From: an uncultured Rubrobacteraceae bacterium
GTDB taxonomy: Bacteria > Actinomycetota > Rubrobacteria > Rubrobacterales > Rubrobacteraceae
Assembly (NCBI GenBank): GCA_902806085.1
Contig: CADCVH010000132.1
Span: 1 to 57,838 of the forward strand
Length of the DNA stretch: 57,838 nt
Reading direction: 5' to 3'
Below, in pieces: positions 792-31,636 of the stretch (position 1 is its first letter; each line of letters begins with the position of its first letter). The notes beneath the pieces were generated by a model, which ran no database searches, was not told the DNA's origin, and saw only the letters and a list, made by a program, of their open reading frames with translations. The translations under genes and the position numbers were made by a program.

Positions 792-816
792 GGTTCCCCC
801 AACGGGAACTCTTCCG

Positions 817-846
817 GCGGCGTCCCTTCGGGGGCGCCGCTCTTTC
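817..846 (+). terminator. Rho-independent-like terminator after groEL
   Basis: A 10-bp stem (GCGGCGTCCC with GGGGCGCCGC, one G-T wobble) closed by a stable TTCG tetraloop begins 25 nt after the groEL stop and is followed by TCTTTCG. The U tract is short, but the stem and tetraloop are strong. Confidence 0.75.
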
Positions 847-859
847 GTACCCCTCGCAG

Positions 860-888
860 TTTCGCCCGGGTCCCAAAGGGTATATATT
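860..888 (+). promoter_or_regulatory. Possible promoter for the micropeptide genes
   Basis: A TATATT hexamer at 883-888 lies in a locally AT-rich spot in otherwise GC-rich DNA, 17 bp after a poor -35 match (TTTCGC, 860-865). It sits between the groEL terminator and the first micropeptide. The -35 is weak, so this is only a candidate. Confidence 0.35.
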
Positions 889-952
889 GCGCCTAGTCGG
901 CAACGGAGCAAGCTGCAGAGGGGAGGATGGGATCGGTAGGGGACTTGGCATA

Positions 953-1015
953 ATGATCGTTGCTCTGACGGTCGGCCTTTTCATCGTGCTCGTGTTGCCG
1001 TACGTATTCGGCTAA
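953..1015 (+). CDS. 20-residue hydrophobic micropeptide A
   Basis: The ATG-to-TAA frame encodes 20 residues that are almost entirely hydrophobic (MIVALTVGLFIVLVL...), enough for one membrane span. It is preceded by AGGGG at 939-943. It also overlaps the stop codon of an 8-codon mini-frame (927-953) in a TAATG arrangement, which could allow termination-reinitiation. It is followed at 30 and then 40 nt by two more genes of the same kind, which is the main reason to believe it. Function is unknown. Small integral peptides of this sort can be accessory subunits, regulators of membrane proteins, or type I toxin-like; nothing here decides. It is the weakest of the three because its Shine-Dalgarno is modest. 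Confidence 0.5.
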   Translation: MIVALTVGLFIVLVLPYVFG

Positions 1016-1045
1016 GAGAAAAGTTTCGGTAAGGGAGGTGAGCAT

Positions 1046-1126
1046 ATGCGGGGCGGGCTTATACCTATACTTGTGGTGATTATTCTGGTGATCGTGGCCT
1101 TACTGCTGCTATCGCGCCTTCTCTAG
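1046..1126 (+). CDS. 26-residue hydrophobic micropeptide B
   Basis: ATG to TAG, 26 residues. A short polar start (MRGG) is followed by about 20 Ile/Leu/Val/Ala residues and a final SRLL. This is a single transmembrane span with positive charge at both ends. A near-perfect Shine-Dalgarno, GGGAGGTGA, sits 5 nt before the ATG, the best initiation signal in the stretch. It is the middle of three tandem micropeptides, all in one direction and apparently one transcript. The strong ribosome site and conserved architecture argue that it is translated. I do not recognise a family, and no function can be assigned. Confidence 0.65.
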   Translation: MRGGLIPILVVIILVIVALLLLSRLL

Positions 1127-1166
1127 TACCGGGTCGCTGATCCGAGCAGGTACTCAGGGAGGTCGT

Positions 1167-1256
1167 ATGGGCGGCAATAACCTGGTCACCATCATCGTGG
1201 TGGTCATAATAGTGATAGTGGTGTTGGCCCTTCTGGGGATCATCCCTCTGTTCTAA
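1167..1256 (+). CDS. 29-residue hydrophobic micropeptide C
   Basis: ATG to TAA, 29 residues. MGGNNLVT leads into a continuous Ile/Val/Leu stretch ending GIIPLF, again one membrane span. AGGGAGGTCGT places an excellent Shine-Dalgarno (GGGAGG) about 5 nt before the ATG. It resembles micropeptide B in layout (Gly-rich start, span, very short tail) but not closely in sequence, so these are either diverged duplicates or convergent one-span peptides. The gap to guaB3 contains a large palindrome that may end this transcript. Function is unknown. Confidence 0.65.
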   Translation: MGGNNLVTIIVVVIIVIVVLALLGIIPLF

Positions 1257-1338
1257 AAGGACCGGCCGCCGCTTGACCGCCGCGCCGGTCGCGGTGTAGC
1301 ATTAACTGGATTTGCAGCGGTCGACGGAAAAGTTTATC

Positions 1339-31510: not shown

Positions 31511-31529
31511 CCAGTCGATGCGGTTCCGA

Positions 31530-31636
31530 CTCATCTCTCGGAGTATCCTCCGCGGGAGTTGGCACCTGACACGGGGTTGCCCCGCCGGTTGCCGCGGCTT
31601 CAAAGGGCCCATCCCTCCACCGCTCTCGATGAGCGC
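31530..31636 (-). promoter_or_regulatory. SAM-I (S-box) riboswitch aptamer
   Basis: Read on the minus strand, it begins GCGCTCATCGAGAG, continues with the conserved GGTGGAGGGA, GGCCCTTTGAAGCC, CGGCAACC and CAGGTGCCAACTCC, and closes with CGAGAGATGAG, which pairs with the start as P1. All consensus blocks of the S-box aptamer are in order. A terminator follows at 31459-31510. High SAM should turn off the downstream homocysteine methyltransferase/MTHFR and metH. Confidence 0.96.

Follow-up and report, generated by a model that had tools for sequence, protein, structure and literature searches.

A conserved tandem set of single-span micropeptide genes with a sigma-B-type promoter and a likely non-AUG start between groEL and guaB3 in Rubrobacteraceae

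Most of what is known about small membrane proteins produced under stress comes from model bacteria, and a role is known for few of them. Listeria Prli42, a single-span micropeptide found at the stressosome, is tied to the sigma-B pathway. E. coli YohP, a protein of 27 aa, reduces both membrane potential and membrane fluidity and aids survival (PMC12719787). On the regulatory side, the sigma-B consensus of B. subtilis is GTTTAA-N15(+/-2)-GGGTAT (PMC9847131), the SigB homologues of S. coelicolor recognise a B. subtilis promoter of this kind (PMC8346170), and Streptomyces sigR has a GTC start codon repressed by IF3, keeping the SigR dose low (PMC5472188).

Here we describe a locus of an uncultured Rubrobacteraceae bacterium whose micropeptides resemble YohP in size, single span and stress link (PMC12719787), a likeness of features that makes YohP a plausible model of their action. 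Unlike YohP, a single gene in another phylum, they form tandem paralogues behind a sigma-B-type promoter. We class them as a new family within an already known kind, the stress-related small membrane proteins. Two things about it are unusual, the tandem paralogous set and a conserved and likely non-AUG start on the first gene. Profiles from Pfam, NCBIfam, PHROGs and the PDB gave no family for the micropeptides, no YohP-named family appeared among the Pfam or NCBIfam matches at E<=1, and against the model of the Thivi_2564 family membrane protein (NF041949) a relative's peptide reached 17.5 bits, below the cut-off of 33. A literature search found no papers on Rubrobacter small proteins.

The window, by which we mean the whole stretch of 57,838 nucleotides analysed, contains, one after another, the groEL 3' end, a terminator, three short frames, the guaB3 promoter and guaB3, all features of the locus lying on the plus strand. 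The tandem hydrophobic frames that a sequence-only reading had placed between the groEL terminator and guaB3 are all present. The upstream boundary of the operon is a rho-independent groEL terminator (816..845), inferred from a GC hairpin and its T-rich tail, and the downstream boundary is a guaB3 housekeeping promoter, TTGACC-N18-TAGCAT (1273..1302). Micropeptide 1, [I/M]GRGLGIMIVALTVGLFIVLVLPYVFG, would occupy 932..1015 and follow the Shine-Dalgarno sequence AGGGGAGG (919..926), with a 5-nt spacer to ATC 932. Micropeptide 2, with 26 aa (MRGGLIPILVVIILVIVALLLLSRLL, 1046..1126), is preceded by GGAGGTGA at 1034..1041, which is conserved in relatives, and micropeptide 3, with 29 aa (MGGNNLVTIIVVVIIVIVVLALLGIIPLF, 1167..1256), by GGGAGG at 1157..1162, the strong ribosome sites noted earlier for two of the frames being those of the second and third. 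Each peptide is little more than a helix of Val, Ile and Leu, long enough to span a membrane and often carrying a single Arg close to one end. Across both strands of the window, only these three frames pass a filter combining a length of 18-45 aa, a Shine-Dalgarno-like site and a mean hydropathy of at least 3 over 15 residues, and no frame passed it in 60 windows simulated by a first-order Markov model with the dinucleotide composition kept. The 8-codon mini-frame that had been described as overlapping frame 1 through TAATG (927-953) can be read in the DNA, but relatives lack its ATG, so its presence here is due to chance.

The leader of guaB3 (1273-1370) holds, besides its TTGACC/TAGCAT promoter, a conserved TTGCAGCGG stretch and a hairpin formed by GCCCACGG...CCGTGGGC, seen in practically every one of 29 aligned sequences and with compensatory changes at 6 of its 13 pairs. 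The leader gave no Rfam match, and its hairpin may act on guaB3 as an attenuator or cis-regulatory RNA. Elsewhere in the window, a SAM riboswitch (RF00162) lies on the minus strand at 31528-31635.

An initial DNA search with positions 780-1300 found matches in 13 of 41 relatives. With guaB3 as an anchor in 39 Rubrobacteraceae genomes and the groEL-guaB3 stretch read in each, single-span micropeptides were found at 29 loci in 28 genomes, covering 11 of 13 genera, with one to three per locus (two or three at most loci), mostly strong Shine-Dalgarno sites and a length of about 24-29 aa. One rule set applied to the 29 loci gave 69 one-span frames, of which about 68 are true micropeptides, one frame in G003 being the tail of a longer CD225-type frame. 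Peptides of the frame-2 type (MRGGLIPILVVIILVIVAILLLSRLL) differ little from genus to genus and are identical between two of them, and subfamilies defined by their C-terminus (LPY/LPF, SRLL, LLGxx) are found next to one another in many genomes. The differences among relatives in frames 2 and 3 cluster at third codon positions and are mostly synonymous, with pS 0.45, pN 0.09 and pN/pS 0.20 for frame 2 in seven genomes, and pS 0.57, pN 0.16 and pN/pS 0.28 for frame 3 in four. All three frames also survived a search of relatives for the stops or frameshifts that would speak against them. Thus, conservation and codon bias strongly support reading the micropeptides as genuine, conserved one-span membrane peptide genes of a kind that usually goes unannotated, as had been proposed.

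A profile search at E<=1 recovered the peptides in 31 of 39 family genomes, which represent 11 of 13 genera. Run against 396 Actinomycetota genomes, the profile matched in 29 Rubrobacteraceae genomes, with no confident match outside the family and three marginal ones only (E 0.004-0.009). The marginal match in G025, outside the family, proved on reading to be a different one-span frame. In Thermoleophilia and Acidimicrobiia relatives, the loci upstream of guaB3 are without the peptides. Within the family, the set is dispensable, because no copy could be detected in G019 or in three genomes, 96-99% complete, that belong to a single genus; groEL and guaB3 lie about 10 kb apart in two of those three, and in the remaining genomes without a match the region is broken or unassembled. 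Some neighbouring small genes were seen in passing. Between groEL and the micropeptide operon, G004 and G003 (L010, L012) carry a CD225/dispanin-type membrane gene, whose G004 copy matches PF04505, and a 57-aa membrane frame, and a similar pair occurs in L037 (G011). Upstream of guaB3 in an actinobacterial MAG and an Acidimicrobiales MAG, unrelated-looking frames of 19-20 aa with Shine-Dalgarno sites, MYIGIGTLILIIILIILLA and MYIGLGTIVIIIIIIILLRS, were found at L071:3163-3222 and L096:3393-3455.

The operon carries a sigma-B-type promoter, read here as a sequence motif, a near-perfect GTTT-N15-GGGTAT at 859..883. Of 31 loci, each represented by its best match within the 110 nt that precede the first frame, 17 match ten consensus bases, 11 match nine and 3 match eight, against 0.1% of shuffled controls with all ten bases and 1.3% with nine. 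The spacer measures 15 at most loci and 16 or 17 at some, and the boxes persist while spacer sequences diverge between genera. In the 4.4 Mb genome, exact GTTT-N14-16-GGGTATA occurs at two sites, and the looser GTTT-N14-16-GGGTA at 41 compared with 29 in a reversed control; this excess being modest, the evidence for the promoter rests on conservation at the locus across genomes. The looser motif also precedes several genes of a stress kind, among them those for a dodecin, a PRC-barrel protein and an Asp23-like protein (a weak match), as well as a gene for a DUF2795 protein. The other exact site (G000:C115:58583-58608; L119, L176) stands before a 54-aa frame with hydrophobic stretches. A SigB/F/G-class sigma factor gene lies at G000:C55:37001-37675, its product scoring over the cut-off of TIGR02980 with sigma-70 regions 2, 3 and 4 present, and the SigBFG model is exceeded at its curated cut-off in 33 of 39 genomes, this one included. 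Both marks of a general stress regulon, a GTTT-N14-17-GGGTAT-like promoter and a SigB/F/G-class sigma factor gene, are therefore found.

A paralogue of the micropeptides, MPNNLVYVLVVIILVLVALLLLSQLI, sits on contig 69 of the same genome (G000), flanked by genes for DUF2382 and CsbD proteins, and in Rubrobacter marinus a paralogue likewise precedes CsbD, a protein named for its sigma-B control in B. subtilis. The paralogues found are those within the reach of the profile, so that others in the genome may have been missed.

The first gene differs from the earlier description, in which frame 1 encoded 20 aa from ATG 953 (953-1015). Micropeptide 1 probably has 27 aa, starting at ATC 932, as the seven codons upstream of that ATG are constrained. 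In nine genomes, the codons before the position of ATG 953 spell a start codon followed by G-R-G-L-G-I, with slight variation, and at the homologous first position stands ATC in the window, ATA in seven relatives and ATG in G014. Codons 1-7 vary almost solely at third positions in five close genomes (pS 0.48, pN 0.05), and the hypergeometric chance of at least five of seven variable columns falling there is about 0.02, for a small set with relatedness ignored. G002 and G005 have an in-frame TGA three codons before the ATA, and G003 and G004 have no in-frame ATG, GTG or TTG ahead of it; with no canonical start covering the conserved stretch in these four genomes, its translation would need a near-cognate start. 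In our reading of G017, CTG is the best-placed start. The paralogues of G023 and G011 begin with M-G-R-G-L at the homologous place, where paralogue starts read MGRGL or MSRGL.

Initiation at ATG 953, with the upstream conservation reflecting its ribosome site only, would fit the ATG, GTG or TTG found at the codon-8 position in seven of nine genomes and the AGGGGA-like stretch that precedes it in most. The other two genomes have GTA and ATC there, a range of codons expected of an inner hydrophobic residue, and the AGGGGA stretch is lost in G003; together with the third-position pattern of codons 1-7 and the paralogue starts, this leaves the shorter form improbable, though with some weight. The conserved non-AUG start is likely and not proven, because the sequence set is small. 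It recalls sigR, likewise the first gene of an actinobacterial stress operon with a non-canonical start (PMC5472188), but the proposed start here is ATC or ATA instead of GTC and the product a micropeptide instead of a sigma factor.

Of the three functions offered by the sequence-only reading, a stress peptide family has gained support from the conserved sigma-B-type promoter and from the paralogue beside the CsbD and DUF2382 genes, while the other two have lost ground. The peptides could instead be constitutive accessory subunits of membrane complexes, one partner per peptide, in the manner of CydX, KdpF and AcrZ, which are also short one-helix proteins; size and single span fit, and distinct C-terminal subfamilies side by side would be expected if the partners differ. 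Positional and sequence support for a subunit of a known complex are both absent, however. KdpF is encoded with kdpABC, whereas the micropeptides are linked to no membrane complex, their neighbours being groEL and guaB3; the KdpF profile (PF09604) has no match in the genome, no Pfam, NCBIfam or PDB profile adds one for the peptides, and the conserved promoter is of the stress type. We therefore consider this role unlikely.

Type I toxin-like peptides restrained by antisense RNA would share the length and hydrophobic helix of the Ibs and TisB classes, and toxin sets also hold tandem paralogues. Yet the place is conserved in 11 genera, with strong Shine-Dalgarno sites, synteny and purifying selection on codons, a sequence scan of the minus strand at 780-1420 found no sigma-70-like promoter, the Ibs_toxin profile (PF13956) has no match in the genome and no toxin family stands among the Pfam matches, all of which makes a toxin very improbable. 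Scarcely better placed is a membrane tether or modulator of stress signalling, with the operon as a feedback element of the sigma-B pathway: the micropeptides share with Prli42 a single span and a sigma-B link, here a sigma-B-type promoter in the same operon, but they have no charged cytoplasmic tail, most showing at best one Arg near the N-terminus.

The probable explanation, in our judgement, is a general-stress operon whose one-span membrane peptides act in the manner of YohP. From the observed frames, coding constraint, promoter motif, synteny and sigma factor gene, we infer stress induction, membrane insertion, non-AUG initiation and an effect on the membrane. A SigB/F/G-class sigma factor, freed under stress, would read GTTT-N15-GGGTAT after the groEL terminator, yielding one mRNA for as many as three paralogous peptides, each 24-29 residues long. 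Each Val/Ile/Leu-rich helix would then insert in the cytoplasmic membrane, singly or oligomerised, and under stress may alter membrane order, membrane potential or how active membrane complexes are, in the way of YohP in E. coli. The non-AUG start, a weak one that reads ATC in this genome and ATA in relatives, would hold the dose of peptide 1 below those of peptides 2 and 3. Sequence alone does not separate a role in membrane order from the binding of a partner. A bolder version, which we regard as doubtful, would have the peptides form stress-induced hetero-oligomeric transmembrane assemblies whose subunit ratio depends on a conserved and IF3-sensitive AUA/AUC start in the first gene and which aid desiccation, heat or radiation survival of Rubrobacteraceae.

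The micropeptides constitute a family of short proteins, conserved across an extremophile actinobacterial family, linked to a recognisable stress promoter and present as one to three copies that have diverged. Should the AUA/AUC start prove true, it would be a natural non-AUG start retained over much synonymous change, in a gene too short for usual annotation, and IF3-dependent dosing of a stress operon would become directly testable.
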